Position numbers and translations under genes: made by a program. Source: Streptomyces sp. TLI_171 (GTDB lineage Bacteria; Actinomycetota; Actinomycetes; Streptomycetales; Streptomycetaceae). Taken from it: a DNA stretch of 64,000 bases. This document shows positions 534 to 16,243 of the stretch, piece after piece (position 1 is the first letter of the stretch; every line of letters begins with the position of its first letter). The notes below the pieces were generated by a model. That model made no database searches. It worked only from the letters and a program-made list of their open reading frames with translations, and was not told the DNA's origin. The stretch lies in NCBI RefSeq assembly GCF_003610255.1, contig NZ_RAPS01000001.1, positions 1,798,001 to 1,862,000 on the forward strand, written 5' to 3'.

Positions 534-1346
534 TCAGTGCCGCAGTTCGAGGGTGCAGCACTTGACGGCGCCGCCGGCCCGGAGCAGTTCGGTGAGGTCG
601 ACGCCGATCGGGTTGAAGCCGCGGGCGCGCAGCTGCTCGGCGAGGCCGACGGCGGCCTCGGGAAGGATCACGTTGGCGCCGTCGGAGACCGCGTTGAGGC
701 CGAACACCTGGGCGTCCTGGGCGCCGGCGGTGATCGCGTCGGGGTAGAGGCGTTCCAGCACGGCCCGCGAGGCGGGGTCGAAGGCCGCCGGGTGGTACAT
801 GATCTCGGTGTCGCTGAGCACGGCGAGCGCGGTGTCCAGGTGGTAGTAGCGCGGGTCGACCAGGCGCAGGGTGACCACCTCGCGGCCGAGGAAGCGCTCG
901 GCCTCGGCGTGCGCGGCGGCCTCGGTGCGGAAGCCGGTGCCGGCCAGGATCCGCTCGCCCGCCACCAGCAGGTCGCCCTCGCCCTCGTTGACGTGCTCGG
1001 CGTCGCGGACCTGCGTCCAGCCGTGCGCGCGGAACCAGTCGGTGTAGGCGGGGCCCTCGGCGGTGCGCTCGGGGTACCGGAAGCGGGCGCCGAGCACCTT
1101 GCCGTCGACCACGGTGGCGCCGTTGGCGGCGAACACCATGTCGGGCAGGCCGGGCACCGGGTCGATCAGCTCCACGGTGTGGCCGAGGCGCAGGAACAGC
1201 GCGTGCAGCTGGTCCCACTGGGCGAGCGCGGTGCCGGTGTCGGTGGGTTTGGCCGGGTCCATCCACGGGTTGATCGAGTAGTCGACCGTGAAGTGGGCGG
1301 GCCGGCACATCAGGTAGTGGCGCGGTCGGGCGGTACGCGGCGACAC
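534..1346 (-). CDS. DDAH-like / amidinotransferase-superfamily hydrolase
   Basis: The 270-residue protein belongs to the dimethylarginine dimethylaminohydrolase branch of the guanidine-modifying superfamily, whose members cleave (methyl)arginine to citrulline. Visible family features are DMVFAANGA (about 69-77), the acidic NEGEGD motif (120-125), a catalytic His in YYHLDTA (H169) and a nucleophile Cys near the C-terminus in GGAVKCCT (C263). The GTG start is supported by GGAAGGA upstream. It is the last gene of the minus-strand cluster, 66 bases after the BBE flavoprotein and before the katG terminator. It could be a housekeeping ddaH. Its position suggests processing of an arginine-derived or guanidine-bearing intermediate, which is inference. 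Confidence 0.75.
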   Translation of the reverse strand: MSPRTARPRHYLMCRPAHFTVDYSINPWMDPAKPTDTGTALAQWDQLHALFLRLGHTVELIDPVPGLPDMVFAANGATVVDGKVLGARFRYPERTAEGPAYTDWFRAHGWTQVRDAEHVNEGEGDLLVAGERILAGTGFRTEAAAHAEAERFLGREVVTLRLVDPRYYHLDTALAVLSDTEIMYHPAAFDPASRAVLERLYPDAITAGAQDAQVFGLNAVSDGANVILPEAAVGLAEQLRARGFNPIGVDLTELLRAGGAVKCCTLELRH

Positions 1347-1412
1347 GGTGGTGTCCTTCCGGGCAGGGCAACGGAGCCGACGGTCGGTCGGCGGGGCTGC
1401 GGGGGTGAGGGT

Positions 1413-2768
1413 TCAACTGCCGATGGACTGCGGGAAGGTGAACAGTCCGTCCGGGTCGTGGCGGCGCTTGGTGGCGACCAGCCTCGGGTAGTTGGCACCG
1501 TAGTAGGCGGTGCGCCAGTCCCGCAGGTCCGGGTCGGTGAAGTTCAGGTAGGCGCCGTCGATCGCGTGCGGAACGACCAGGTGATCTAGTTCGGCCAGCC
1601 AGGCCAGGTTGGCCGCCGGGTCCTCGCCGGGCAGCCAGGAGGTGTCCAGGCTGACCAGGTACTCGGCGCTGCGGTGGACGAAGGCGGTGGCCTGCGGGTC
1701 GACCCGGTTGATCGCGCCGCCCCAGCCGAACAGGGCGAGGCCGCAGCCGTCCGGGTTGCCGCTGCCGGGCCAGGCCTCCAGGTGCGCCAGCACGGCGGCC
1801 ACGGCTTCGGGCGGCAGCGGCGCGGCGGCGAAGTGGGTGCGGACGGCGAACGCGCCGCCGCTGGTCTCGTGCTGCAGGTAGTCCATGGCGTCCCAGAAGT
1901 CCCGGTCGGCGAGGTCGGCGCGCAGCGGCTGCCCGGCGGCGAGCGCGGGGGCGAGCAGTTCGCGCAGTTCGGCGGCGGGGCCGAGGTGCAGGCCGATGGC
2001 GGAGACCACGGTGCGTCCGCCGGAGCGGGCGGCGCCCAGGCGCAGCGAGGTGCGGTCGGGGGCGGTGCGCATCAGGTGCTGGACGGCGTCGAACACGGCC
2101 GGGGCGTGGGCGGCGTCCCAGAGCAGCAGGCAGGTGCTGGCGGCGGGGGCCGGGGTGGCCTGGAAGGTGAGGTCGAGGTTGATGCCGAAGTTGCCGCCCC
2201 CGCCGCCGCGGCACGCCCAGTAGAGGTCCTCGTTCTGCTGGTCGTCGCAGTGGAGGACGGTGCCGGCGGCGGTGGCCAGGGTGGTGGCGCGCAGCGTGTC
2301 GGCGGTCAGGCCGAGGTGCCGGGAGGTGGCGGCGGAGCCGCCACCGAGGGCGAGGCCGGCGATGCCGACGCCGGCGCCGTTGCCGAGCGGCAGGGCCAGG
2401 CCGTGCGGGCGCAGCGCGGCGTACAGGGCGCCGGTGAGGGTGCCGCCGCCGACGGTGACCCGGCCGGTGGCGGGGTCGACGGTGATGGTGTCGAGGGCCC
2501 GCAGGTCGAGGACCAGGCCGGTGTTGACGGAGTGTCCGGCGTAGGAGTGGCCGCCGCCGCGGGGGACGATCGGGACGCCGCTGTCGCGGGCCCAGTCGAC
2601 GGCGCGGAGCACGTCGTCGCGGTCGGCGGCCTGCAGGACGGCGGCGGGGGCGCGGTGCGCCCAGCGTTCGTTGAAGGCGGCGGAGGAGTCGTGGAAGGCG
2701 GCGTCGCCGGGGTGCAGCAGCGGGCCGGTGGTGTGCTTGTCGAGCAGGGCCCAGTCGGGGGTGGTCAC
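1413..2768 (-). CDS. BBE-type FAD-dependent oxidoreductase
   Basis: A 451-residue flavoprotein of the berberine-bridge-enzyme/FAD_binding_4 (PCMH) family. The FAD-attaching His lies in PRGGGHSYAGHS near residue 70. The region GNGAGVGIAGLALGGG follows, and the typical BBE tail YYGANYPRL and DPDGLFTFPQSI ends the protein. The second covalent site (a Cys before VGxxG) is not seen, so the flavin is probably attached only through His. There is no secretion signal, so it should be cytosolic. The GTG start overlaps the upstream stop (GTGA), showing translational coupling to the small protein before it. Such enzymes oxidise alcohols, amines or C-C bonds in natural product pathways; the substrate here is unknown. 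Confidence 0.85.
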   Translation of the reverse strand: MTTPDWALLDKHTTGPLLHPGDAAFHDSSAAFNERWAHRAPAAVLQAADRDDVLRAVDWARDSGVPIVPRGGGHSYAGHSVNTGLVLDLRALDTITVDPATGRVTVGGGTLTGALYAALRPHGLALPLGNGAGVGIAGLALGGGSAATSRHLGLTADTLRATTLATAAGTVLHCDDQQNEDLYWACRGGGGGNFGINLDLTFQATPAPAASTCLLLWDAAHAPAVFDAVQHLMRTAPDRTSLRLGAARSGGRTVVSAIGLHLGPAAELRELLAPALAAGQPLRADLADRDFWDAMDYLQHETSGGAFAVRTHFAAAPLPPEAVAAVLAHLEAWPGSGNPDGCGLALFGWGGAINRVDPQATAFVHRSAEYLVSLDTSWLPGEDPAANLAWLAELDHLVVPHAIDGAYLNFTDPDLRDWRTAYYGANYPRLVATKRRHDPDGLFTFPQSIGS

Positions 2769-3103
2769 GGGGCGATCTCCTCGATGGTGGAGGTGCCGGC
2801 GGCGGGGTGCGGGCCGTAGCGCTCCCACTGCTCGTGCAGCCGGATCCGGCCGTCGGGGGTGAGGGCGGGGGTGTTGCGGGTGCGGCCGCAGACCACTTCG
2901 CCGTCGTCGAGGACGAAGGTGTAGCCCATGGCGAGGGTGCCGTCGGGCAGCCGGGTGCCGGCGGTCCAGCCGCGGCGGATCGCGCCGCCGGCGATCTCGC
3001 CCCAGACCAGGTCGCCCTGCTGGTGGTAGACGGCGACGGTGCGGCGGTCGCCGTCGGGGGCGTGGAAGCGCCGGCCCTCGTAGTCGAGCTGGCGGGGGTT
3101 CAC
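2765..3103 (-). CDS. Small beta-rich conserved protein, function unknown
   Basis: A 112-residue protein starting MNPRQLDYEGRRFHAPDG. It resembles a widespread actinobacterial family with the pattern GDLVWGEIAGGAIRRG and a C-terminal RLHEQWER, often given the doubtful name N-acetylglutamate synthase. The sequence suggests a calycin/MoaF-like antiparallel barrel; no catalytic residues can be assigned. The GTG start overlaps the stop of the cupin gene (GTGA), and its own stop overlaps the BBE gene start. The three genes therefore form one translationally coupled block. A role in binding or folding a small hydrophobic intermediate is only a guess. Confidence 0.6.
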   Translation of the reverse strand: MNPRQLDYEGRRFHAPDGDRRTVAVYHQQGDLVWGEIAGGAIRRGWTAGTRLPDGTLAMGYTFVLDDGEVVCGRTRNTPALTPDGRIRLHEQWERYGPHPAAGTSTIEEIAP

Positions 3104-3450
3104 GCCTGCCACCAGATCGCGTAGTAGGCGAAGTCCTGGTCGTGCGGGTTGGCCACGGCGTGGTCGGTGTCGGCGGGCAGCAGGACCAGGTCGCCGGCGG
3201 CGATGGGGTGGCTGCCGTCGGCGGTGCGGACCTCGCCGCGGCCGCTCATGCAGATGAACAGTTCGCGTTCGGTGTGCTGGTGGGTGTCGGTGAGGTCGCC
3301 GGGGCGCAGCACGCACCAGGCGCCGTGGAAGGGGGTGGTGAGTTCGCCCCAGGGGTGCAGCAGTCTCAGGTCGAGGCCGTGGGCGCGTTCGAGTCCGGCG
3401 GGTTCCTGACGGCGGATCACCAGGCCGGGCGGCAGGCCGGTTTCGGGCAT
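3100..3450 (-). CDS. Stand-alone single-domain cupin, candidate N-N bond-forming half of a hydrazine synthetase
   Basis: A 116-residue protein with both cupin motifs intact. Motif 1 has G51, H57, H59, E63 and G70; motif 2 has G86, P92, H97 and N101. The four metal ligands H57, H59, E63 and H97 are all present. In known hydrazine synthetases (s56-p1, triacsin pathways) a cupin domain is fused to a MetRS-like domain and rearranges the aminoacyl ester of an N-hydroxylated lysine to a hydrazine. The MetRS-like gene of this cluster (13410-14957) has no cupin, so this gene is the obvious partner. That link is inference, since small cupins have many other roles. It lies 38 bases after the regulator gene and is coupled to the next gene. 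Confidence 0.75.
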   Translation of the reverse strand: MPETGLPPGLVIRRQEPAGLERAHGLDLRLLHPWGELTTPFHGAWCVLRPGDLTDTHQHTERELFICMSGRGEVRTADGSHPIAAGDLVLLPADTDHAVANPHDQDFAYYAIWWQA

Positions 3451-3488
3451 GGCGGGGCTCCGTTCGGGTGCGTGGGCGTGGGGAGCCG

Positions 3489-4163
3489 TCAGCGGGCGGC
3501 GGCGTGGCCGAGACCGGCGTCGCGGGCGAGCACGATGGCCTGGGCGCGGTCGGCGACGCCGAGTTTGCCGAAGATTCCGGAGATCCGGTTGCTGACGGTC
3601 TTGGAGGCGAGGGCGAGTTCGCGGGCGATGACGGTGTTGGACCGGCCGGCGGCCAGGTGTTCGAGGACTTCCCGTTCCCGGTCGCTGAGTTGCGGGAACG
3701 GGTAGCTGCGCGGCCGCGGGCCGGCGCCGATCAGGGTGCCGAGCCGGGCGGCGATGGTGCGGTCGACGATGGCCTCGCCGTTGCCGACGGCGTGGATGCC
3801 GCGGACGATCTGGTCGGCGGTGGCGCGTTTGACCAGGTAGCCGCGGGCGCCGGCGTGGAAGGCGGCGGTCACCGCCCTGTCGTCGTCGAAGGCGCTGAAC
3901 ACCAGGACGCCGGTGTCGGGGGCGAGCCGCAGGATCTGACTGATCATCCGCATGCCGGAGCTGTCGTCCAGTTGCGGGTCGAGGACCAGGACGTCGGGCC
4001 GGTGCCGGGAGGTGGCCGCGAGCACCTCGCCGGTGGTGCCCGCCTCGCCGACCACCAGCGCGCCGCCGGAGGCCTCCACCATGGAGCGGACGCCCTGGCG
4101 GACGGCCGGCTGCGCGTCGGCGAGCAGCACGGTCAGCGGCGTGGAACTCCCGTGCTGGTTCAT
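3489..4163 (-). CDS. NarL/FixJ-type response regulator, likely cluster regulator
   Basis: A 224-residue protein with an N-terminal receiver domain (about 10-125) and a C-terminal LuxR-type helix-turn-helix (about 159-217, LSDREREVLEHLAAG). The phospho-acceptor is D62 in VLVLDPQL, the switch Ser is S90 and the conserved Lys is K112. One of the two acidic residues of the magnesium pocket is missing (D16-A17 instead of DD), so phosphorylation may be weak or absent. The start chosen is the ATG after GAGGGGACG; an in-frame start 22 codons upstream has no better site. No sensor kinase is adjacent. Its place between the two blocks of the cluster suggests a pathway-specific regulator. Confidence 0.85.
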   Translation of the reverse strand: MNQHGSSTPLTVLLADAQPAVRQGVRSMVEASGGALVVGEAGTTGEVLAATSRHRPDVLVLDPQLDDSSGMRMISQILRLAPDTGVLVFSAFDDDRAVTAAFHAGARGYLVKRATADQIVRGIHAVGNGEAIVDRTIAARLGTLIGAGPRPRSYPFPQLSDREREVLEHLAAGRSNTVIARELALASKTVSNRISGIFGKLGVADRAQAIVLARDAGLGHAAAR

Positions 4164-4292
4164 CGTCCCCTCGCGGCGTGTGGTGGTGCGGCAAAAGGCG
4201 GTGCGTGCGGCCGGGGACGTGGTGATCACCGGCGGTGACGATTCCGTTACCTCATCATGATCTGGTCAATCGCGCGGCTCAAGTGTGCAATG

Positions 4293-6053
4293 TCATACAG
4301 GAGTTGGCAGATGTGATGATTGCCCGGCCGGTTCCGGAGCAGGGACGCCGGTCAGTGCCAGGCCCTCCCGGGCGCGGCGCATGATCTCCTCCCGGCCGCG
4401 CCAGTGCGACCAGAACGCGCCGGTGTAGCCGAGGCCGCCCAGGCTGGTGAGGAACGGGTTGTCGGCGTAGTTGTTGTCGTGCTCGCTCATCCCCTCGACG
4501 GTGGGCAGCATCACCCGGTGGTGGTCGGCGGGGTCGATCATCGCCCACAGGTCGGCGACCGGTCCGTGCCAGCGCTCCTCCGGGTCGGCGGCCCGGGCCG
4601 GGTCGGGCAGCAGGCCGGGCGAGAACCAGCAGACCAGCCGGAAGTTGCCGTGCTCGTCGAACATGAACTGCCGCTCGTACTCGGCCGGGGAGGCGCACAT
4701 CCGCAGCGGCTTGAGCACGATCGGGCCGCCCGCGGTGTTGGACTGCAGGCCGGGGACGGTGCGCACGCCCGCGCACTGCTCGGCGATGTCGATGCCCATC
4801 GGGGTGTAGGGGAACAGCCGCAGGCCGAGCGAGAAGCCGGTGACGGTGGCGTCCAGCGCCATGAAGGCGTCCACGCAGGCGCGGACCGTCTCCATGGTCT
4901 CCCCCGGCATGCCGAACAGCGCCTCGACCATGGTGAGGATGCCGCGTTCGTGGCAGAGCCGGACCAGCCGCTCGGTGTCCTCGAAGGTGTAGTACGTGCC
5001 GCCCTTCTCGGTGACCTTCCAGCCGCTGAGCACCTCGGGGCGGATGTGGTCGCTGCCGACGTTGACGCCCCGGCAGCCGGCCGCGGCCAGCAGGTCGGCG
5101 AACTCCTCGTCGAACGGGCTGGGTTGGCAGTACACCCAGAGCCGCAGACCGTTCAGCGGGTTGTCCGGGTCGGCGTGCCGGCGGCGGACGATCTCCCGCA
5201 GCAGGTTCTTGGCGTGCGCGATCGACAGGTTGAACTCGCTGTCGGTGGTGTGCTGGTCCAGGATGCCCTGGGCCGCCAGCGACTCCATCTCGTCGACCAC
5301 CGAGGCGAGTTCGCGCTGCCCGTAACGGGTGCCCTTGGCGTCGGGCTCCACGCAGTGCGAGCAGCGGTAGGCGCAGCCGTTCTTGGTCAGGATGGAGCCG
5401 AGGCCGCCGCGCCGGTAGTACTCCAGGTTGTCGACCCGGCGCGGGACGCCGGAGCGCCGCCGGTACACCGACTGCCGGTCCACCTGCCACACCCGGGGCT
5501 CGAACTGACCGGTGGCGTCGACCTGCTGGGCCTGCCCGTGGCGGACGGTGAGCACCGCGGGCGGGACCCGGACGGCGCCGCGCTCGGTGTTGCGGATCAG
5601 TCCGGCGATGCCGGTGGTCTCGCGGCCCTCGGCGACCGCCTCGGCCAGCTCGCAGAGGATCTTCTCGCCGGGGCCCTTCACGCCGTAGTCGATGCCGAAG
5701 TACTCGACCAGCGCGAACGGCATGGTGGAGAAGCCGATGCCGCCGCCGACGATGGGCGCCTCGGTGTGCCGGCGGATCTCGGTGATGATCTCCCGGTGCT
5801 CACCGACGAACGGCCGCTGCTCGAAGGCGTACACGGTGTCGGTGTTGCGGACGGTCACCCCGACCAGCATCGGGTCGCGTTCCGCGAAGTACTCGTGCAG
5901 GCAGGTCTTCCAGTCGTCGCGGCGGAAGGTCAGGTCGAGCACCTCCACCTCGAAGTCGGCGTCCTCCAGCGCGGTGGTGAGGACGTCGAGGGCGTAGGGC
6001 GCGATCGGCGGATGCACCTTGTTGGGATTGACCAGTAGGACCAGTCTGCTCAT
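4293..6053 (-). CDS. Cobalamin-binding radical SAM enzyme
   Basis: A 586-residue class B type radical SAM protein. The N-terminus (about 1-140) fits a B12-binding Rossmann domain, with GGGIGFSTMP near 103-112 and no DxHxxG motif, as in many base-off cobalamin radical SAM enzymes. The iron-sulfur cluster motif CAYRCSHC provides C227, C231 and C234. The C-terminal 200 residues are extra. Such enzymes methylate unactivated carbon or phosphorus, or drive ring rearrangements, in antibiotic pathways. It follows the second ACAD-like gene by 40 bases with GGGAGGGAA before the ATG, so it is probably the last gene of the main operon. The substrate is unknown. Confidence 0.85.
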   Translation of the reverse strand: MSRLVLLVNPNKVHPPIAPYALDVLTTALEDADFEVEVLDLTFRRDDWKTCLHEYFAERDPMLVGVTVRNTDTVYAFEQRPFVGEHREIITEIRRHTEAPIVGGGIGFSTMPFALVEYFGIDYGVKGPGEKILCELAEAVAEGRETTGIAGLIRNTERGAVRVPPAVLTVRHGQAQQVDATGQFEPRVWQVDRQSVYRRRSGVPRRVDNLEYYRRGGLGSILTKNGCAYRCSHCVEPDAKGTRYGQRELASVVDEMESLAAQGILDQHTTDSEFNLSIAHAKNLLREIVRRRHADPDNPLNGLRLWVYCQPSPFDEEFADLLAAAGCRGVNVGSDHIRPEVLSGWKVTEKGGTYYTFEDTERLVRLCHERGILTMVEALFGMPGETMETVRACVDAFMALDATVTGFSLGLRLFPYTPMGIDIAEQCAGVRTVPGLQSNTAGGPIVLKPLRMCASPAEYERQFMFDEHGNFRLVCWFSPGLLPDPARAADPEERWHGPVADLWAMIDPADHHRVMLPTVEGMSEHDNNYADNPFLTSLGGLGYTGAFWSHWRGREEIMRRAREGLALTGVPAPEPAGQSSHLPTPV

Positions 6054-6093
6054 GGGTTCCCTCCCCTGGGTGAAGTGAATAACTGACGGTCGG

Positions 6094-7263
6094 TCAGACG
6101 ATGCCGAGGCTGATGCCGAACTCGGGGGTGCCGCCGACCAGGTAGGCCCCGGCGGACTGCAGGATCCGGTCCTGGGCGACCAGGTGCTGGGCCATCACGG
6201 TGGTGTCGCGCAGCCAGCGGTCCATCGGCGAGCTGCGGTTGATGGACCAGGTCTGCAGCAGGTCGTAGAGCCGGGCGACGATGTCCCGGGAGCTGCGGAA
6301 GGCGTGCAGCCAGGACAGCGGGGAGGCGGCCCGCTCGGTGGGCGTGAGGTCGTCCAGCGTGCCGCCCGCGGCGAGCACCTCCCACTGCCGGCGCATCGAG
6401 CCGTACACGCCCTCCCGGGCGGCGTTGAACTCGGCTTCGCAGCGCGCGAGTTCGGTCTGCACCCGCCAGCTGTCGGCCCAGGCCCGGCCGGCCATCCGGT
6501 CGTACCGGGTGGACGCCACCTCGCGGACGTGGTCGAGGGCGGCGCGGGCCACGCCGAGCGGGACGCCGCACATCGCGCGGGTGAAGGAGTCCGCCTGGGT
6601 GAGCGGGCTGGGCGCGCCGTGCGGGGTGGCGAAGGTGTAGGTGTGCTCCTCGGGCACGAACACCTCGGTCATGGTGTAGTCGCAACTGCCGCTGCCGCAC
6701 AGGCCGGTGGTGTCCCAGTTGTCGATCACCTCGACCTCGGAGCGCGGCACCAGGAACTGCCGGGAGTCGTGCCGGTGCTTGCTGCCGGGGGCGGCCCAGG
6801 GCTCGCCGCCGTCGAAGATGAAGGCGCCGGACGTCACCCAGTCGGCGTGCTTGATGCCGGAGCCGAACGACCAGCGGCCGCTGAGCCGGAAACCGCCGGG
6901 CACGCGCTCGGCCCGGCCGGAGGGCTGCAGCAGGCCCGCCACCACCAGGTCGAGGCGCGGGAAGACCTCCTTGGCCACCGCCTGGTCCAGGAAGTTGGCG
7001 TAGATGCCGGTGTTGGCGCCGATCACGGCGCACCAGGCGGCGGAGGCGTCGCCGTACGCGAGGGCCTCCACCACCTCGGTCTGCTCCATCGAGGTGAGCG
7101 CGGGGCCGCCCCACTCGCGGCCGAAGCACATGCCGAACACGCCGGTGGCGCGCAGCAGTTCGACCACCTCGGCGGGCAGGGTGCGGTTGGCCTCGATCGC
7201 GGGGGCGAGCTCGCGCAGCTGCGGCGCCAGTTCCCGGGCCCGCTTCAGGATCTCGGAGGACAT
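6094..7263 (-). CDS. Acyl-CoA-dehydrogenase-fold flavin monooxygenase, paralog A
   Basis: A 389-residue member of the ACAD fold that uses flavin to oxygenate or dehydrogenate non-CoA substrates (HpaB-C2/DszC-like group D monooxygenases). Visible signatures are the mid-domain GRWSFGSGIKHADW, the long helical C-terminus with YDLLQTWSINRSSPMDRWLRD and no catalytic Glu context of true fatty acyl-CoA dehydrogenases. It starts 4 bases after the stop of paralog B with GGAGAG as ribosome binding site. The two proteins are alike over their full length. In this cluster an N-oxygenation or hydrazine-to-azo oxidation would be logical; this is inference. No flavin reductase is encoded nearby, so reduced flavin must come from elsewhere if it is a two-component enzyme. 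Confidence 0.8.
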   Translation of the reverse strand: MSSEILKRARELAPQLRELAPAIEANRTLPAEVVELLRATGVFGMCFGREWGGPALTSMEQTEVVEALAYGDASAAWCAVIGANTGIYANFLDQAVAKEVFPRLDLVVAGLLQPSGRAERVPGGFRLSGRWSFGSGIKHADWVTSGAFIFDGGEPWAAPGSKHRHDSRQFLVPRSEVEVIDNWDTTGLCGSGSCDYTMTEVFVPEEHTYTFATPHGAPSPLTQADSFTRAMCGVPLGVARAALDHVREVASTRYDRMAGRAWADSWRVQTELARCEAEFNAAREGVYGSMRRQWEVLAAGGTLDDLTPTERAASPLSWLHAFRSSRDIVARLYDLLQTWSINRSSPMDRWLRDTTVMAQHLVAQDRILQSAGAYLVGGTPEFGISLGIV

Positions 7264-7267
7264 GTCG

Positions 7268-8479: not shown

Positions 8480-9804
8480 GCGTCCACGTCCAGCAGTCCG
8501 GCGGGCATCGCGAACGGGGCCGCGGGGTCGGCGGGTTCGACCTCGGAGGTCTCCAGCCGGACCAGGGCGGCGGCCGCGTCGAGCCGCTGCTCGCAGCCGG
8601 CCAGGGTGTCGGCCTCGCAGATCACGAAGGAGTGCCTGGCCAGGTAGCCGCCGGGGGGCAGCCGCAGCACGGTGCCGTCGGGGGCCATCGGCGCGGCGTG
8701 CACCAGGCCCGCCGCCTCGCCCGCCTTCGGCAGGGTCAACCCGTCCAGGCGGCAGTCCTGTTCGGGGTAGCCGAAGCGGATGCCGGCCACCGCGGTGCGG
8801 GTCGGGGCGATCTCCGGCCGGCGGCCCACGGCGACGTCGAACAGCACCTCGCCGGGCTCCAGTCCGGTGGCGATCCGGCCGAGCAGCGGGATCAGGTCGC
8901 CGCCGAGCCGGCCGTTGACCTCGACGATCAGCGGGCCGCGCGGGGTGAGCCGCAGTTCGGTGTGGGTGATGCCGTCCTCGACGCCGAGCGCCCGGTGCGC
9001 GTCGGCGAGCACGGCCAGCAGCTGCGGGTCGGCGAGCAGCGGGTCGGCGGCGTCGACGATGTGGCCGACCTCCTCGAAGTACGGCTCGTCGCTGCTGTAC
9101 TTGCGGGCCAGGAACAGCGGCAGGTACTCGCCCTTGTGGACGGCGCCGTCGACGCTGATCTCCGGGCCGCCCGCGTACTCCTCGACGATCACGCTGGCCC
9201 GGTAGGGGCCGGGATCGACCTCGCTGGCGGACAGCGCGGTGGTGAACGCGGCGTCCAGCTCGCTCTCGTCGGCGGCGAACACCACGCCGATGGAGGCGCC
9301 CATCGCCCGCGGCTTGAGGACCACGGGGTAGCCGATCCGGGCGGCCGCGGCGCGGGCCTCGGCGAGGTCGGTGGTGAGGGCGAAGCCCGGCTGGCGCTGG
9401 CCGGCGGCGGTGAGCACGCTGCGGGTGCGCTCCTTGTCGCGCACGCCGCGCACGCCGCGCTCGGACAGGCCGGGGACGCCGAGTTCGGCGGCCAGCAGGC
9501 CGGCGTCCAGCACCAGCGGCTCGTCCCAGCAGAGCAGGCCGACGATCTGCCGGCGGGCGGCGATCTCCCGGACGGTGGCGTTCATCACCGCGGTGTCGAA
9601 GACGTTGGCGACCACGATCTCGTCGAAGTACTCCTGCTGCCAGGTCGGCCGCAGGTTGTTGACCAGCAGCAGTTCCAGCCCGGCGGCGCGGGCGCGGCGG
9701 CTCATCGGGCCGACCAGGTACTCGCGGTACTCCTTCAGTCCGCTGCCGATCACCAGCAGCGTGCCGGCGCCTGTCACGGCGTCCCCTTCCTGACGCTGGG
9801 TCAT
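8476..9804 (-). CDS. ATP-grasp carboxylate-amine ligase (copy B)
   Basis: A 442-residue ATP-grasp enzyme that should join a carboxylate and an amine (or hydrazine) through an acyl phosphate. The nucleotide-binding Lys lies in YPVVLKPRAMGASIGV, the adenine loop in VIVEEYAGGPEISVD and the metal-binding site in HTELRLTPRGPLIVEVNGRL, with the canonical E-x-N. The ATG start overlaps the TGA of ATP-grasp A. It is long enough for the full L-amino-acid-ligase architecture, with a pre-ATP-grasp domain and a C-terminal lid. It probably links a hydrazine-containing acid or amino acid to another amino acid; the partners cannot be told from sequence. Confidence 0.85.
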   Translation of the reverse strand: MTQRQEGDAVTGAGTLLVIGSGLKEYREYLVGPMSRRARAAGLELLLVNNLRPTWQQEYFDEIVVANVFDTAVMNATVREIAARRQIVGLLCWDEPLVLDAGLLAAELGVPGLSERGVRGVRDKERTRSVLTAAGQRQPGFALTTDLAEARAAAARIGYPVVLKPRAMGASIGVVFAADESELDAAFTTALSASEVDPGPYRASVIVEEYAGGPEISVDGAVHKGEYLPLFLARKYSSDEPYFEEVGHIVDAADPLLADPQLLAVLADAHRALGVEDGITHTELRLTPRGPLIVEVNGRLGGDLIPLLGRIATGLEPGEVLFDVAVGRRPEIAPTRTAVAGIRFGYPEQDCRLDGLTLPKAGEAAGLVHAAPMAPDGTVLRLPPGGYLARHSFVICEADTLAGCEQRLDAAAALVRLETSEVEPADPAAPFAMPAGLLDVDA

Positions 9805-11084
9805 GCGATCTCCTCCTCGGTGCTGTCCAGTTCGATCCGGACCAGGGCGGCGGCCGCATCGGCCAGTCGGCGGGCCTCGGCGGGGGTGTCGGCCAGGGCG
9901 GTGACGATGCCGACCCGGTCCCAGGAGCTGCGCAGTCCCGCGGTGCGGTGCCCGGGGCCGATGCCGATCGCGGCCTGCTGGACGCCCTCGGCGGCGGCCG
10001 CCTGCTCCATGCCGTGCACCGCGGTGACGGTGCCGGGCCCGTCCGGGGCGAGGAAGCGGGCGGCGGTGGCCCGCTCGGCCCGCTCCGGCAGCGGGCCGAG
10101 CGGCGTCCCGCTCATCAACGCGAAGTACGAGCGCAGCAGTCGGACGGGGTAGGCGGCCTCGATCAGGTCCGGGATCGAGTCGCCGGGCAGCCGGCCCGCG
10201 CACTCCACCAGCACCGGGACGCCGTCCGCCAGGATCCACTCGCAGTGCAGCACCCCGTCGCCGAAACCGACCGCGGCGACCAGCCGCTCGGTCTCGGCGA
10301 CCAGCGACTTGCGCTGCTCCTCCGGCAGCTCGGCGGGGACGGTGTGGCCGGACTCGATCGGGTACGGGCCCGGGTAGAGCAGCTTGCCGGTGGTGTTGGC
10401 GAACACCGAGCGGCCGCCGGCGACCAGCAGCTCGACGCTGAACTCCGGTCCGCTGACGAACTGTTCGGCCAGCATGGCGAGCTCCATCGGGCGGTCCGGG
10501 ACGAACACGCCCTCGTCCTGGGCACAGCACTGCGCCCAGGCCTGCTCGACCTCGGCGGGCCCGTGCAGCACCCGGGTGCCCACCGAGGCCTGCCGGTTGG
10601 CGGGCTTCAGCACCACGGGGCCGGGGTTCCTGGTCATGAAATCGGTCAGCTCGGCGGCGCTGCGCACCGGCTCGGAGGCCGGGTTGGCGATCCCGGCGGC
10701 GGCCGCGACGGTCCGCAACTGGTGTTTGTCGCGCAGCAGTTGCGCGGAGCCGAGGCCGGCGCCCGGCAGGCCGTAGCGTTCCGCGAGCCGGGCCGCGAAC
10801 GGCACCGCGTACTCGACGGCGGGGATCACCGCGACCGGGTCGAGGTCGGGGTGGGCGGCGAAGAAGGCGTCCGCCCGGCCCGGAAGGTGGTACTCCCACT
10901 CGATCAACTCGCGCGCGAAGTCGATCTGTTGGAGGGCCTCGGCGAGGTGCCGCTTGCGGGCGACGTCCGGCTCCTCGACGTAGATCACCGAGTCGGCGGG
11001 CTGGAAGGCGGCGATGCCGGGCACCGCGAAGGCGACGTAGCCGACGATCAGCACCGGCCGTTCGGCGGGGACTTGACTGTTCAT
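9801..11084 (-). CDS. ATP-grasp carboxylate-amine ligase (copy A)
   Basis: A 427-residue ATP-grasp protein of the same broad family as copy B but clearly diverged. Visible are the ATP-binding GPVVLKPANRQASVGT, AEQFVSGPEFSVELLV and the metal-site region VLVECAGRLPGDSIPDL. In the last motif the usual Asn of E-x-N-x-R is Ala (ECAGR). This may weaken one magnesium contact or mark a changed role. The ATG overlaps the stop of the exporter gene. The N-terminus (LIVGYVAFAVPGIAAF) is the usual Rossmann-like pre-domain. Two such ligases suggest a product built from at least three amino-acid-like units. Confidence 0.85.
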   Translation of the reverse strand: MNSQVPAERPVLIVGYVAFAVPGIAAFQPADSVIYVEEPDVARKRHLAEALQQIDFARELIEWEYHLPGRADAFFAAHPDLDPVAVIPAVEYAVPFAARLAERYGLPGAGLGSAQLLRDKHQLRTVAAAAGIANPASEPVRSAAELTDFMTRNPGPVVLKPANRQASVGTRVLHGPAEVEQAWAQCCAQDEGVFVPDRPMELAMLAEQFVSGPEFSVELLVAGGRSVFANTTGKLLYPGPYPIESGHTVPAELPEEQRKSLVAETERLVAAVGFGDGVLHCEWILADGVPVLVECAGRLPGDSIPDLIEAAYPVRLLRSYFALMSGTPLGPLPERAERATAARFLAPDGPGTVTAVHGMEQAAAAEGVQQAAIGIGPGHRTAGLRSSWDRVGIVTALADTPAEARRLADAAAALVRIELDSTEEEIA

Positions 11085-12352
11085 ACGGTCTCTCCGACTG
11101 GGTCCGGATCGGGGTTCTTCGCGGCGGCGGCGCGCAGGGCGGCCCGGTGCTTGAGGCCGGCCACGGCCAGCACGCCGGCCAGGCCGTTGACCAGGGCCAT
11201 CAGCACCCAGAACCCGGCGTGCAGGTGGGTCCAGGCCCAGACGCCGAACAGCGGGCCGACCGCCGAGGCGAGGCCGGCCGCGGCCTGCATGGTGCCGAGG
11301 TAGCGGGCCTTCAACGCGTCCGGGAAGGTGGCCGGGTGGGCGAACATGCTGGGTCCGGCGATCATCAGGCCGCTGACCGCGAGCACCGCGCCGAACAGCA
11401 CGAACGCCCCGGAGTGCACGGCCAGGCCGTACACGGCGAGTCCGGCCGAGTTGACCAGGTGGCCGACGCCGACCGCCAGGTAGGTGGGGATGCGGGTGAT
11501 GTACGAGGTGATCTTCAGTTCGCAGGTGATCAGCACCAGCGAGGACGCGGTCAGCACCGCGCTGTACAGGCCGGTCGGGTAGCCGTCGTGGACGATCTCC
11601 AGCGGCAGCGAGATCGAGGACTGCACGTAGGCGACGGTGCCGAGCATCACGGCGGCCAGGTACGCCAGGTAGGCCCGGTCGCGGAGCATCGCGGCGTACG
11701 CGGCCCGGCCGCCGGAGCGGCGTTCGGCACTGTCCTGCGGCTGCTGTTCGGGCACCGCGTGCCTGGGCAGCAGCCGGTAGGCGAGCGCGGCGTAGACCAG
11801 GGTGGTGGCGCCGTCCAGCCAGAACAGCAGGTCCCAGTCGAGCAGGATCACGCCGGCGGCGATCAGCGGGGCGAGCGCCGCGCCGGTGTTCAGCGCGATC
11901 CGCATCATGGAGAAGCCCATCACCTGGTACCGCTCCGGCATCAGGTCGCTGAGCAGCACCGAGGCGGCGGGCCGGTAGGCCTGCGCGAACAGACCGGCCA
12001 GGGCGATCGCCACCAGGAGCGCGGCGAGCAGTCCGGGCCGGGCCAGCAGCGGCAGCACGGCGACCAGCGGCGCCGAGCCGGCCATCGCGGCCACGATCGT
12101 GGTGCGCGCCCCGAGCCGGTGGGTGATCTCCCCGCCGAGCACGGTGCCGAACACGGTGCCGAGGCTGTACGCGCCGAGGGCGAGTCCGGCGGTGCCGCCG
12201 GACAGGCCGCGGTGCGTCAGGTACAGCACCAGGAACGTCTGGACGAACGCGCCCAGTTGGTTCACCAGTACGCCGCCGAGCAGGTACCGGACGGTGGTGG
12301 GGGTGGCCCGAAGGGTGTCGAGGACACCGATCGCCGGGCTGTCGTCGGTCAT
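11081..12352 (-). CDS. MFS transporter, likely product exporter
   Basis: A 423-residue integral membrane protein with about 12 hydrophobic segments and the MFS loop motif around GGEITHRLGARTT. The middle loop after ARHAVPEQQPQDSAERR is cytoplasmic by charge. It sits inside the operon, coupled by ATGA overlaps on both sides, which favours export of, or self-protection from, the cluster product rather than nutrient uptake. The start ATG overlaps the TGA of the DAO-like gene. Confidence 0.85.
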   Translation of the reverse strand: MTDDSPAIGVLDTLRATPTTVRYLLGGVLVNQLGAFVQTFLVLYLTHRGLSGGTAGLALGAYSLGTVFGTVLGGEITHRLGARTTIVAAMAGSAPLVAVLPLLARPGLLAALLVAIALAGLFAQAYRPAASVLLSDLMPERYQVMGFSMMRIALNTGAALAPLIAAGVILLDWDLLFWLDGATTLVYAALAYRLLPRHAVPEQQPQDSAERRSGGRAAYAAMLRDRAYLAYLAAVMLGTVAYVQSSISLPLEIVHDGYPTGLYSAVLTASSLVLITCELKITSYITRIPTYLAVGVGHLVNSAGLAVYGLAVHSGAFVLFGAVLAVSGLMIAGPSMFAHPATFPDALKARYLGTMQAAAGLASAVGPLFGVWAWTHLHAGFWVLMALVNGLAGVLAVAGLKHRAALRAAAAKNPDPDPVGETV

Positions 12353-13413
12353 GCCGCCTCCTGGAGCGCCGCGGTGATCCGCTCCGCGACCAGCGGAGCG
12401 GTGGAGAACCCGCTGCCGCCGCACGCGGCCCGGGCCCACAGGCCCGGGGAGACCCGGGCCAGCAGCGGGCCGCCGGTGGCGGCGTCCGCGGTGTAGTGGC
12501 ATACCCGGACGCCGGCCAGCGGATAGCGGTCGAGGTCCGGCAGGATGCCCTCGGCCGCCAGCCGGTCCAGGTACGGCTGTTGGTCCTCGGCGCTGCTGTC
12601 GGTGTCGGTGACGGCGCGGCACACCGTGTCCGAGCTGAGCTTGAGCAGGGTGCCCGCGCCCGGGGGCAGCACCCAGCCGCGGCCCTCCCGGCCGAGGCCG
12701 CCCGCGGTGGGCGCCTCGTCCCAGCGGTCGCCGCCGGCCGGACGTCCCAGGTAGACCATGGTCTGCCGGTACAGGGTGACCTGACCGTCCGTCAGCTTCC
12801 GGGTCCACGGGCCGCCGGCCAGCAGGGTCAGGTCGCCGCGGACCACCTCGCCGTCGGCCAGCACGATCCGCCCGGAGCCGGCGAACACCGTCCGCACCGT
12901 GCGGTGCGGGCGCAGGTCCACGCCGGGCTGGGCGGCCAGCCAGCGGGCGGCGGCCCGCAGCACCCGGTCGGCCAGCAGCACGCCGCCGGTCCGCTCGCGG
13001 ACCGCCACCGTGCCGGACGGCCGGCCCAGCAGCGGGAGCCGGTCGTCCGGCGGCAGGTCGACCGGGATGCCGGCCTTGTCCGCCTCGGTGAGCAGTTCGC
13101 CGAGCCGGTGCTCGGGCCAGGCGGTGAGGACGCCGACCCGGCGGTACAGCTCGGCGCCGAACAGCCGCTCCAGGTCCTCCCAGTGGCGGTGGGCGACCAG
13201 CCGGCGGGCAGTGCCGTCGGGGTCACCGGGCAGCAGGGTGCGGATGGCGCGGTGCTGGTCGTGCGAGGTCGCGTCGGGGTTGGGCACCGGGCCGCGTTCC
13301 AGCACGGTGACCCGGTGCCCGGCCCGCGCGCAGGCGACGGCGGTCAGCAGCCCGGTGACACCGGCGCCGACCACCACCACGTGCGCGGCGGCGCCGGAAG
13401 GGCGGCTGTTCAC
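12349..13413 (-). CDS. DAO-fold FAD-dependent oxidase (hydrazine pathway type)
   Basis: A 354-residue flavoprotein with the N-terminal dinucleotide motif VVVVGAGVTGLLTAVACARAG and a conserved arginine-rich loop SHDQHRAIRTLLP. The C-terminal GGSGFSTAPLVAERI is typical of D-amino acid/glycine oxidase-like enzymes. The GTG start overlaps the TGA of the MetRS-like gene. In the s56-p1 and triacsin pathways a DAO-like oxidase cleaves the lysyl-hydrazine made by hydrazine synthetase, releasing hydrazinoacetic acid. The position directly after the MetRS-like gene matches that arrangement, so the same role is proposed here by analogy. Confidence 0.8.
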   Translation of the reverse strand: MNSRPSGAAAHVVVVGAGVTGLLTAVACARAGHRVTVLERGPVPNPDATSHDQHRAIRTLLPGDPDGTARRLVAHRHWEDLERLFGAELYRRVGVLTAWPEHRLGELLTEADKAGIPVDLPPDDRLPLLGRPSGTVAVRERTGGVLLADRVLRAAARWLAAQPGVDLRPHRTVRTVFAGSGRIVLADGEVVRGDLTLLAGGPWTRKLTDGQVTLYRQTMVYLGRPAGGDRWDEAPTAGGLGREGRGWVLPPGAGTLLKLSSDTVCRAVTDTDSSAEDQQPYLDRLAAEGILPDLDRYPLAGVRVCHYTADAATGGPLLARVSPGLWARAACGGSGFSTAPLVAERITAALQEAA

Positions 13414-14957
13414 CGTCCGCCGCCGTGCACGCGGGTGGCGAGCCTGGGCAGCGGCCGGGGGCGGACGGTGGTGGCGGACGGCTCGGCCGGGATCGCCTGG
13501 TCCGGCAGCGCCTCGGCGGCCAGGTCGACCAGCAGCGGGGCGGCGCAGCGCAGGAACAGGTCCAGCTCGTGCCAGAAGTCGCCGGCGTCCTGGTCGGTGA
13601 CCTCCCAGCGGTCGAGCCGGCCGAGCTGCTCGGTGAGGGTGAACGCGGCGGCGCTGAGGCTGAAGCGGCGCGGGCGCAGCGCGGCGGCGAAGCGCTCGGC
13701 GATCAGCTTGGCGGCGTGCCGGGAGCGGGCGCCGACCGGCAGCGGACCGCGGTCGAGGTACGCCTCGGCCTTCTCGGCGACCCGGTTCCACGGTTCGACC
13801 AGGCGCTGCCCGCAGACCCGGTCCATGGCGGCCCGGGTGAAGTTGGTGCGCTGGAAGTCCGGCCCGGTGGCGGCCAGGTAGTAGCGGACCAGGTCGCGGG
13901 GCACCTCGGCGGTCAGCTGACGTCCCGTCACCACGTGGCCGCGGCTGGTGGAGAACTTGTCGCTGTCGAGTTCGTAGAACTCGTTGGTGACGAAGTGCGC
14001 GGGAAGTGCCAGTCCGCCGAGGGCCAGCAGCATCGCGGTGCCGGCGAGCGCGAACGCGAAGCTGGCGTCGGAGCCGAAGAAGAACACCACTTCCGGGCCG
14101 GCCTCGGCGGCCCAGTGCCGCTCCTCGTCGCCGGGGACCTCGCCGCGGGCCTCGGCGGCCAGCGCGATGGCGTGCAGGCTCCACGCCACCGTCTCGGTGT
14201 CGGAGTACAGCACCTGGCCGGGGGTCTCGGCGAACGGGGCGGGGATGCCCCAGTCGATCGGCAGCGTGATCGGGTAGTCGGGCAGCCGTCGGGCCATCAA
14301 CTCCTCGACCAGCTGGGCGAGTCGGGGTCGCATGGTGGGCGCCAGCCGGGCGAAGTAGGAGGCCAGCGCGGCCCGGTGCTCCTCCAGCGGCAGGACCAGC
14401 ACCTCGCACTCGCGCAGCTCGACGGCGAGTTCGGGGTGCCGGGTGGAGCGCGGTTCGATCAGCTCGCCGGAGGCGATCCAGTGCCCGCAGTTCTCGCACA
14501 GCCCGGCGCAGCCCTCGGCCAGGCAGACGGGGCAGCCGCCGCGCACGTACGCGTCGGTGAGGAACTCCCCGGTGTCCGGCAGGTACGGGAACTTCACCTT
14601 GCGCAGCCGCAGGTGGCCTTCGCCGTGCAGCCGTTCGAACAGGGTGCGGACGGTCTTCAGGTACCGGTCGTCGAACCGGACGAAGCCGTCGGGGACGATG
14701 CCGGCCGCGGCGAGGGTCGCCTCGACCTGTTCGGCGGCGTGCAGCCGCAGCTCCTCGGGCTTTTCGCCGAGGCGGCGGGCGGTGGTGACGATGTAGTTCT
14801 GGGTGAAGTGCACGCCGGTGCCGAACAGGGTGTCGCGGGCGGTGGCGCGGGCGTACCGGGCGCACACGTCGGCGGACAGGAACGGGCCGGCCAGGTGGCC
14901 CAGGTGCAGGTCCCCGTTGGCGGTGGGTCCGGGGGCGACCACCAGCAGCGCGGCCAT
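13410..14957 (-). CDS. Methionyl-tRNA-synthetase-like enzyme, candidate aminoacyl-ester half of a split hydrazine synthetase
   Basis: A 515-residue class I aminoacyl-tRNA-synthetase homolog of MetRS type. The HIGH motif is HLGH (18-21), the KMSKS motif is KFSTS (334-338), and the zinc knuckle keeps CPVC (142-145) and CENC (154-157). No extra C-terminal tRNA-binding module is visible beyond the helical region. Its ATG overlaps the stop of the lysine/ornithine N-hydroxylase gene by one base, and the DAO-like gene follows with a GTGA overlap. In known hydrazine synthetases this domain activates glycine (or another amino acid) and esterifies the hydroxyl of N-hydroxylysine; a fused cupin then makes the N-N bond. 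Here the N-terminus begins directly at the catalytic fold, so no cupin is fused. A housekeeping MetRS inside this operon is unlikely. Confidence 0.85.
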   Translation of the reverse strand: MAALLVVAPGPTANGDLHLGHLAGPFLSADVCARYARATARDTLFGTGVHFTQNYIVTTARRLGEKPEELRLHAAEQVEATLAAAGIVPDGFVRFDDRYLKTVRTLFERLHGEGHLRLRKVKFPYLPDTGEFLTDAYVRGGCPVCLAEGCAGLCENCGHWIASGELIEPRSTRHPELAVELRECEVLVLPLEEHRAALASYFARLAPTMRPRLAQLVEELMARRLPDYPITLPIDWGIPAPFAETPGQVLYSDTETVAWSLHAIALAAEARGEVPGDEERHWAAEAGPEVVFFFGSDASFAFALAGTAMLLALGGLALPAHFVTNEFYELDSDKFSTSRGHVVTGRQLTAEVPRDLVRYYLAATGPDFQRTNFTRAAMDRVCGQRLVEPWNRVAEKAEAYLDRGPLPVGARSRHAAKLIAERFAAALRPRRFSLSAAAFTLTEQLGRLDRWEVTDQDAGDFWHELDLFLRCAAPLLVDLAAEALPDQAIPAEPSATTVRPRPLPRLATRVHGGGR

Positions 14958-16243
14958 CAGCGGGCGTCCGCGGTGACGGTGGTCAGGCCGTGCCGGTCGA
15001 GCAGGTCTCCGGTGATGTCGCGGGCCCGGTGGGCGAGCACGCTGATCAGCGAGTCGGCGATGCCGTGGGTGGCCTCGTTGACGCCCTGCAGGTAGAGCGC
15101 GGCGTCGGTGCCGGCCCCCAGGTCGACCCGGTAGTCCCGGCTGACGCTGACCTCGGCCAGCCCGGCCTTCTCGGTCAACTCCCGGACCAGCGAGGGCATC
15201 CGGCTGTCGTAGCCGGTGCCGAGCAGCACCAGGTCGCAGCGGTGCTCGGCGACCTTGCCGGTGCGGCGGTCGCGCAGCTCCAGCACCACCTCGCCGTCCT
15301 CCTCGCGGGCGGTGACCACCTCGGTCATCGCCCGCACCTCGGCGCGGCCGGTGCCGATCATCTTCTCCCGGTACAGCAGCATGTACAGCTCGTCCAGGAA
15401 CGGCGGGGCCAGGCCCGCGTAGTTGGTCAGTCGCATCTCGTCGAGCACCTGGGCGCGCATCTCGGCCGGGGCCTCGTAGAACTCGTCGACGAACGACGGG
15501 TAGAACAGCTCGTTGACGAACTTGCTGGTCTGGTAGTTCTGCAGGCCGATCGAGCGGACCAGCATGGTGACGGTGGAGTTCGGCAGCTTCTCGTACAGCG
15601 CCATGAACATCTCGGCGGCGCTCTGCGCCCCGCCGATCACCACGGTGCGCAGCGGGGCGTCCTTGTCGACGGCGCTGATCCGGCCGCGGAACCGGGAGCT
15701 GTGGATGACCTTCTCGGCGGGCAGGTCGGCGAACACGGCCGGGATGTGCATGTCGCGGCCCGCGCCGACCACCAGGTCGCGGCAGCGGATGGTGTCGCCG
15801 TCGGCGAGGGTGACCTGCCAGCCGATCAGCTTGCCGTTCTCGTCGTAGCGCGGCTCGGTGGCGGTCGCCTTGGCGTCGTAGCGGATCTGCACCTTCTCCA
15901 GCGACTTGGCCACCCACTGCAGGTAGTCGGAGAACTCCCAGCGGTGCGGGTGGAAGGTGCCCAGGTTGATGAACTGGTCCAGGCGGCCGTGCTGGTGCAG
16001 GAAGTTGAGGAACGAGAACCGGCTGCGCGGGTCGCGCAGGGTCACCAGGTCCTTCAGGAAGGACACCTGGCTGCGGGCCCACGGCATCAGCAGGTCGCGC
16101 TGCCACTTGATGTCCGGGGCCTGCTCCAACAGCAGGGTGCGCTCGGCCAGTTCGGCCGAACCGCTCTCCTCGATCGCGGCGGCGAGGGCCAGGTTCGCCG
16201 GGCCGGCTCCGATCGCCAGTACGCCCACCTCTAGGTCAGCCAC
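14957..16243 (-). CDS. Lysine/ornithine N-monooxygenase (PvdA/IucD family)
   Basis: A 428-residue flavin N-hydroxylase. The FAD motif is GAGPANL (12-18), the NADPH motif GGAQSAAEM (204-212) and the LGTGY motif 341-345. Residues matching the SidA substrate pocket can be seen: K64 in SFLKDLVTLRDP, N244 in KFVNELF and N274 in LTNYAG. It should hydroxylate the side-chain amine of L-lysine or L-ornithine. There are no NRPS or IucA/C siderophore genes nearby, which argues against siderophore synthesis and for a hydrazine pathway. The start is GTG after GAGGGGGAA. It is the first gene of the main operon, with its promoter expected between 16244 and 16440. Confidence 0.9.
   Translation of the reverse strand: MADLEVGVLAIGAGPANLALAAAIEESGSAELAERTLLLEQAPDIKWQRDLLMPWARSQVSFLKDLVTLRDPRSRFSFLNFLHQHGRLDQFINLGTFHPHRWEFSDYLQWVAKSLEKVQIRYDAKATATEPRYDENGKLIGWQVTLADGDTIRCRDLVVGAGRDMHIPAVFADLPAEKVIHSSRFRGRISAVDKDAPLRTVVIGGAQSAAEMFMALYEKLPNSTVTMLVRSIGLQNYQTSKFVNELFYPSFVDEFYEAPAEMRAQVLDEMRLTNYAGLAPPFLDELYMLLYREKMIGTGRAEVRAMTEVVTAREEDGEVVLELRDRRTGKVAEHRCDLVLLGTGYDSRMPSLVRELTEKAGLAEVSVSRDYRVDLGAGTDAALYLQGVNEATHGIADSLISVLAHRARDITGDLLDRHGLTTVTADAR

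Follow-up and report, generated by a model that had tools for sequence, protein, structure and literature searches.

Spb38–40 of s56-p1, Tri26–28 of triacsin and AzsL–N of azaserine biosynthesis share an N-hydroxylase, a methionyl-tRNA synthetase-like (MetRS-like) protein with a cupin, and an oxidase resembling D-amino acid oxidase (DAO-like). The MetRS-like and cupin units may also occur as stand-alone proteins (PMC8664883), RHS1 of Rhodococcus jostii being one example, and the albofungin genes (Afn8/Afn9/Afn18) likewise split the MetRS-like protein, the cupin and an N6-lysine hydroxylase. We analyzed a 64,000-nucleotide stretch of Streptomyces sp. TLI_171 (contig NZ_RAPS01000001.1, positions 1,798,001 to 1,862,000, from an 8.46 Mb genome; "the window" below), in which a run of 14 minus-strand genes (534–16243, the strand of all genes described below unless stated) encodes a comparable set. 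Relative to Spb38–40, Tri26–28 and AzsL–N, the MetRS-like and cupin proteins are here encoded by separate genes some 10 kb apart, the 14 proteins contain no carrier-protein or non-ribosomal peptide synthetase (NRPS) domain, and a TsrM-family methylase, two flavoenzymes of the acyl-CoA dehydrogenase (ACAD) fold and two ATP-grasp ligases are added. The initial annotation of this DNA read it as a hydrazine (N–N) cluster, which our analysis supports through a PyrN-like MetRS-like protein, the position of that protein in a tree, a constant N-hydroxylase and a cupin gene that had escaped notice. We consider it probable that the split hydrazine synthetase (MetRS-like plus cupin) forms the N–N bond and that the ATP-grasp pair joins the hydrazine to 2-methyltryptophan; the predicted outcome is that this soil actinobacterium cluster makes a peptide with both an N–N bond and 2-methyltryptophan.

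The MetRS-like protein (13410–14957, 515 residues), predicted to be one half of the synthetase, had been assigned to the hydrazine-forming rather than the tRNA-charging type, and this assignment holds. Its best solved match in both sequence and fold is the MetRS-like domain of PyrN (9l8v), the characterized hydrazine synthetase domain of the pyrazomycin system (PyrN/PyrM), which outscores every solved tRNA-charging MetRS; PyrN, however, uses glutamate, and no counterpart of a saccharopine dehydrogenase-like partner is found among the 14 proteins here. In a tree of 54 rows kept by hand from 94, a branch with 100/100 support separates the protein from both tRNA-type MetRS of the genome and from E. 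coli MetG (the three tRNA-type enzymes have long branches, and PyrN was not a row). Alignment with E. coli MetRS, covering proteins longer than 440 residues, places Asp at Trp253 and Gly at both Trp305 and Leu13, which we take to be the positions that hold methionine in the E. coli enzyme; most other relatives retain the pocket Trp that is replaced here. We reject a tRNA-charging identity on these pocket residues, the fold and sequence matches and the tree split. Elsewhere in the genome, two other strong MetRS-family matches (C1:3004206, L164; C1:4545929, L165) resemble tRNA-charging enzymes. The MetRS-like gene is interrupted or shortened in two same-genus genomes (L028/L056 and L045), whose cluster copies may be decaying or misassembled, and a gene family with a YbaK-like scanned member (L147:1926–2429, 52 bits, short of the 153 cut-off) turns up in 12 related loci, where it perhaps protects against mischarging by an amino acid analog.

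The other half of the synthetase, predicted to form the N–N bond itself, is a 116-residue cupin (3100–3450) whose family profile (A2) matches RHS1 (5uqp) at 1.5e-12; the solved cupins 4rd7 (2.8e-57) and plu4264, 4mv2 (1.3e-41) match this profile far better. The RHS1 zinc is bound by Asp63, His65, Glu69 and His103, and alanine variants of all four are inactive (PMC8664883). Cupin residues H57, H59, E63 and H97 occupy these positions with the spacing of RHS1, such that three of the four ligands are identical and His57 replaces Asp63; the His is found in all 15 rows of the cupin alignment, as is E63, which aligns with the invariant E69 of RHS1. In four related loci (L054, L055, L057 and L058) a cupin of 43–45% identity lies between the N-hydroxylase and MetRS-like genes; a relocated relative of it is therefore the best reading of the far-off cupin in this cluster. 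N–N bond formation by the MetRS-like protein and the cupin is likely.

The N-hydroxylase (14957–16243, 428 residues, GTG start) belongs to the SidA/PvdA/KtzI-type flavin-dependent amino acid N-hydroxylases (PF13434, 295 bits), its best solved relatives being PvdA ornithine 5-monooxygenase (267 bits), MbtG (217) and KtzI (207), and is likely to make N-hydroxylated ornithine or lysine. It is present in all 37 stretches that hold both MetRS-like and TsrM genes, out of 121 in which a MetRS-like gene was called (some genomes are represented twice). In a tree of N-hydroxylases longer than 380 residues it does not group with the genome's other strong N-hydroxylase, taken for a siderophore enzyme, which was the sole row of that kind and has a very long branch. 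Several TsrM-type clusters (L089, L093, L094 and L052) hold a pair of N-hydroxylase genes; for L089 and L052, each copy is most closely related to the other, the pattern that duplication or gene conversion would leave. The DAO-family FAD oxidase (12349–13413, 354 residues; PF01266, 104.5 bits) would take the role of Spb39, Tri27 or Apy10, and its gene adjoins the MetRS-like gene in 85 of the 121 stretches. In the actinopyridazinone pathway (Apy9–11), too, a hydrazine synthetase is paired with a DAO-like enzyme, which releases a hydrazino amino acid as proposed here; Apy11 uses diaminobutyrate and Apy9 alanine.

The cobalamin radical-SAM enzyme of the initial annotation (4293–6053, 586 residues) can be placed more sharply: by family (TIGR04428, 1085 bits against a cut-off of 500) and by close relative it is a tryptophan 2-C-methyltransferase of the TsrM type. 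It is identical to crystallized TsrM, the thiostrepton tryptophan C2-methyltransferase, in 540 of 586 aligned columns (92%; 6wte/6wtf), and retains R69, E273, the CX3CX2C cluster motif and Y308, which we take to be a key TsrM residue. R69 and E273 of TsrM are discussed in PMC8992657. Thiostrepton is a ribosomally synthesized and post-translationally modified peptide (RiPP), whereas Pfam scans of the 14 proteins here found no YcaO or lantibiotic dehydratase domain (precursor peptides were not searched for). The 575-residue TsrM sequence in the PDB is identical at 575 of 575 positions to a protein of locus L037, from a same-genus genome whose 20 kb stretch holds all 14 genes; the crystallized TsrM is hence the protein of a sister cluster, its source species being Kitasatospora setae. 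Of 394 family genomes, a TsrM homolog is encoded in 28 (E up to 1e-100) and a MetRS-like protein in 59 (E up to 1e-60), and in 23 of the 28 the TsrM homolog shares a contig with a MetRS-like gene, 7.8–11.1 kb away. A structurally solved methylase is thereby placed in an unexpected pathway, with a likely natural role; the genome encoding the exact crystallized protein is a single contig, which renders the question directly testable.

Gene content, gene order, family assignments and their conservation were observed directly, as was the identity of crystallized TsrM to the sister protein. By tblastn, all 14 proteins occur in 10 further same-genus stretches with best-hit identities of 67–96% (in one of these the simple gene caller overlooked the small gene, in another an ATP-grasp), and the gene order recurs, rearranged, in other genera; from this recurrence we conclude that the cluster is not a chance assembly. 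In seven TsrM-type loci chosen for extension, the order of regulator, cupin, small gene and BBE-like oxidase (berberine bridge enzyme-like) after the methylase is kept in all seven. Besides the N-hydroxylase, the 37 TsrM stretches all encode DAO, ATP-grasp and ACAD proteins, with a major facilitator superfamily (MFS) protein in 36, the regulator in 24, the cupin in 18, the small protein in 16, the BBE-like oxidase in 12 and the dimethylargininase-like hydrolase in 11 (many of these stretches end earlier). For the 84 stretches without TsrM the counts are N-hydroxylase 81, ATP-grasp 78, cupin 76, small protein 62, DAO 56, MFS 42, dimethylargininase-like hydrolase 38, BBE-like oxidase 37, ACAD 28 and flavin reductase 22. 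In the MetRS-like tree the TsrM-bearing rows form a single clade (13/13, support 100/99), beside which stands a weakly joined group of 14 with no TsrM in their stretches. Among the TsrM carriers are Kitasatospora, Actinacidiphila, Lentzea, Kutzneria, Actinokineospora and a Streptomyces; members of the group that lacks it include Streptomyces scabiei, S. ipomoeae, Nocardia, Saccharothrix and Micromonospora.

The ligases that may use 2-methyltryptophan are ATP-grasp 1 (9801–11084, 427 residues, LAL_C2 type; PF13535 and PF18603) and ATP-grasp 2 (8476–9804, 442 residues; PF13535, 64 bits), which take the place of the asparagine-synthetase-like hydrazine transferase of albofungin, itself a polyketide. 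ATP-grasp 2 carries the motif E-V-N-G-R-L-G-G (of the E-V-N-x-R kind), and E-[VI]-N-G-R-L-G-G is found in all 35 proteins of its type from TsrM-type stretches. At the same site ATP-grasp 1 reads E-C-A-G-R-L-P-G, a motif seen in 19 of 36 such proteins (the search pattern missed the other 17).

Two ACAD-fold flavoenzymes are present as had been described. Both ACAD1 (7268–8479, 403 residues) and ACAD2 (6094–7263, 389 residues) match the HsaA model (144.5 and 137.4 bits, both under the cut-off of 450), and ACAD1 has Rv3094c as its best PDB match (161 bits) with XiaF matched too, so that by sequence the pair resemble flavin monooxygenases of the two-component type and not dehydrogenases. Given such relatives, we do not favor a role as hydrazine dehydrogenases of the Tri22/AzsF kind (the Tri22 and AzsF sequences were not compared). 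A BBE/EncM-like FAD oxidase (1413–2768, 451 residues; PF01565 and PF08031) has 9p1o as its best PDB match (225 bits) and matches EncM at 181 bits. The small gene (2765–3103) encodes a 112-residue protein predicted to form the eight-stranded avidin barrel, PF26421 being assigned to 12 of 12 homologs by precomputed annotation; it recurs in hydrazine clusters (78 of the 121 related stretches), and we found no role assigned to it.

From these genes we infer a scheme (the individual reactions, the sequence in which they run, the two amino acid substrates and a product with an N–N bond), whose first steps are modeled on hydrazine synthetase pathways (PMC11705231, PMC8664883; further sources PMC13274452, PMC12154687). 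The dimethylargininase/dihydrolase may supply an arginine-derived precursor, and the N-hydroxylase would make N-hydroxy-ornithine or N-hydroxy-lysine. The MetRS-like protein would adenylate a second amino acid (other than methionine) and pass it to the hydroxylamine oxygen; the cupin would then rearrange this ester to create the N–N bond, and the DAO-like oxidase would cleave one C–N bond to release a free hydrazino acid. The TsrM-family methylase would provide 2-methyltryptophan, and the ATP-grasp ligases would assemble a di- or tripeptide or a hydrazide. Oxidation of the indole or of the hydrazine may fall to the BBE-like oxidase and the pair of flavin monooxygenases, and export of the product to the MFS protein; a possible task of the avidin-fold protein is to bind a reactive intermediate. 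The predicted product class, with an N–N bond and 2-methyltryptophan, would be built by amino-acid ligases and not by NRPS. All parts belong to known families; searches of open-licence papers showed neither hydrazine genes combined with TsrM or 2-methyltryptophan nor a product class of this kind.

Several observations count against this scheme. The cupin lies far from the MetRS-like gene and has His in place of RHS1 Asp63, a position whose D63A variant was inactive (PMC8664883), a change that slightly lowers our confidence in the split-synthetase explanation. With Asp at the position of E. coli Trp253, the adenylation pocket is unlike that of most relatives, such that its substrate cannot be read from sequence, and the family assignment of the N-hydroxylase fits ornithine and lysine alike. 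The proposed precursor hydrolase was not found in four of the seven extended TsrM-type stretches. Ala for Asn in its metal-site motif may leave ATP-grasp 1 altered or inactive, co-location is what connects either ligase to 2-methyltryptophan, and none of the 14 genes encodes a flavin reductase. Five of the 28 TsrM homologs lie away from a MetRS-like gene; one of these five was scanned (L179) and stands beside YcaO, TfuA, lantibiotic dehydratase and P450 genes, a RiPP-like setting. L178, also away from hydrazine genes, shows a run of gene sizes like that of L179.

Other products can be drawn from the same genes. The synthetase might use glycine to make hydrazinoacetic acid, the route known from s56-p1, triacsin and azaserine, with the flavin enzymes converting it to a diazo, azo or azoxy warhead on 2-methyltryptophan, which we hold to be possible if somewhat doubtful. 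N-hydroxylase, MetRS-like protein, cupin and DAO are indeed the hydrazinoacetic acid set (PMC11705231), and the azaserine cluster likewise has ATP-grasp, isocitrate lyase-like and MFS genes (PMC10445470), with the qualification that its authors, in the excerpt used, doubt a role for their ATP-grasp. PEP mutase/isocitrate lyase-like (phosphoenolpyruvate mutase-like) genes occur in 31 of the 84 related loci without TsrM, and an O6-alkylguanine-DNA alkyltransferase family (one member scanned), which fits a DNA-alkylating product, in 5 of the 121; both, however, are missing from this cluster, whose 14 proteins gave no carrier-protein or AMP-binding loading enzyme domain of the triacsin/azaserine kind in Pfam scans, and the MetRS-like protein has another residue where most other relatives have the pocket Trp. 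That same pocket, with smaller or polar residues at the three presumed methionine positions, would suit activation of tryptophan or 2-methyltryptophan by the MetRS-like protein itself, placing the N–N bond on the indole amino acid with alpha-hydrazino-2-methyltryptophan as the building block. Tyrosine-accepting MetRS-like relatives are known (PMC8664883), and the TsrM gene and the MetRS-like clade are co-inherited; yet in the neighboring group, which lacks TsrM, the pocket is similar, Asn standing in for Asp, so that the pocket change does not track methylation exactly, and the excerpts consulted for pathway chemistry name no tryptophan-using hydrazine synthetase. We judge this alternative unlikely.

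A further alternative is that no N–N bond is formed and that the product is a metallophore of the hydroxamate or O-acyl-hydroxylamine type or else an ordinary dipeptide bearing a hydroxyl group. In its favor, the N-hydroxylase is of the siderophore enzyme family and has PvdA as its best solved relative. The genome's strongest N-hydroxylase match is, however, a separate and distant gene, no NRPS or IucA-like domain is found among the 14 proteins, and the MetRS-like and cupin proteins resemble the N–N-forming type; we do not favor the siderophore reading and regard such products as very improbable. Returning to the split synthetase with ligation to 2-methyltryptophan, a bolder form of it is speculative and rather unlikely: the cluster would define the first known class of indole hydrazino peptides, with the N–N bond on or next to 2-methyltryptophan and the conserved avidin-fold protein acting as a dedicated carrier for the reactive hydrazine on its way from one enzyme to the next. 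Were this true, the structural model TsrM would be an enzyme of a hydrazine pathway and not of a thiopeptide one.

The gene layout bears out what had been described. N-hydroxylase, MetRS-like and DAO genes lie back to back with overlapping ends (1 base, within TGATG, and 4 bases, respectively), and 4-base overlaps continue through the MFS, ATP-grasp 1, ATP-grasp 2 and ACAD1 genes; the small gene and the BBE-like gene overlap too (1 or 4 bases), as do, by coordinates, the cupin and small genes. The ATP-grasp pair, the ACAD-fold pair, the cobalamin radical-SAM enzyme and the predicted MFS exporter (11081–12352, 423 residues; PF07690, 110 bits) are all encoded in this run. Every gene named before is present; the cupin, the 112-residue protein and a LuxR-type response regulator (3489–4163, 224 residues; PF00072 and PF00196) had been overlooked. 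To the left, a plus-strand gene ending at 481 begins in the flank (L005, 14259–16481) and is putatively katG, from reading its residues without a family scan; to the right, a Pfam scan of the protein at 16512–17948 gave no match.

The last gene of the run encodes a dimethylargininase/arginine dihydrolase-like hydrolase (534–1346, 270 residues), for which the family labels disagree on the reaction: NCBIfam calls a dimethylargininase (NF045659, 456 bits, cut-off 300), and the best solved relative is the arginine dihydrolase AgrE/ArgZ (173 bits). It possibly supplies an arginine-derived precursor. A second copy in the genome is 63% identical, and the gene is present in 49 of the 121 related stretches; on these two grounds we do not favor its being a chance housekeeping neighbor. 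In L183 (C1:817001–825000, 3387–5718), that second copy is followed by genes for a haem-oxygenase-like iron redox enzyme (PF14518) and a flavin reductase-like protein, a set reminiscent of N-oxygenase pathways.

Deinococcus ficus and Pantoea ananatis have copies on plasmids, together with ATP-grasp genes. In several Streptomyces, S. scabiei 87.22 among them (L105, L106, L110 and L113), a related cluster lacks TsrM and contains CopC/CopD-like and PEP mutase-like family genes (one member scanned per family). The alkyltransferase family is shared by L059, L060, L101, L102 (the scanned member) and L135, where it possibly serves as self-protection against a DNA-alkylating product.

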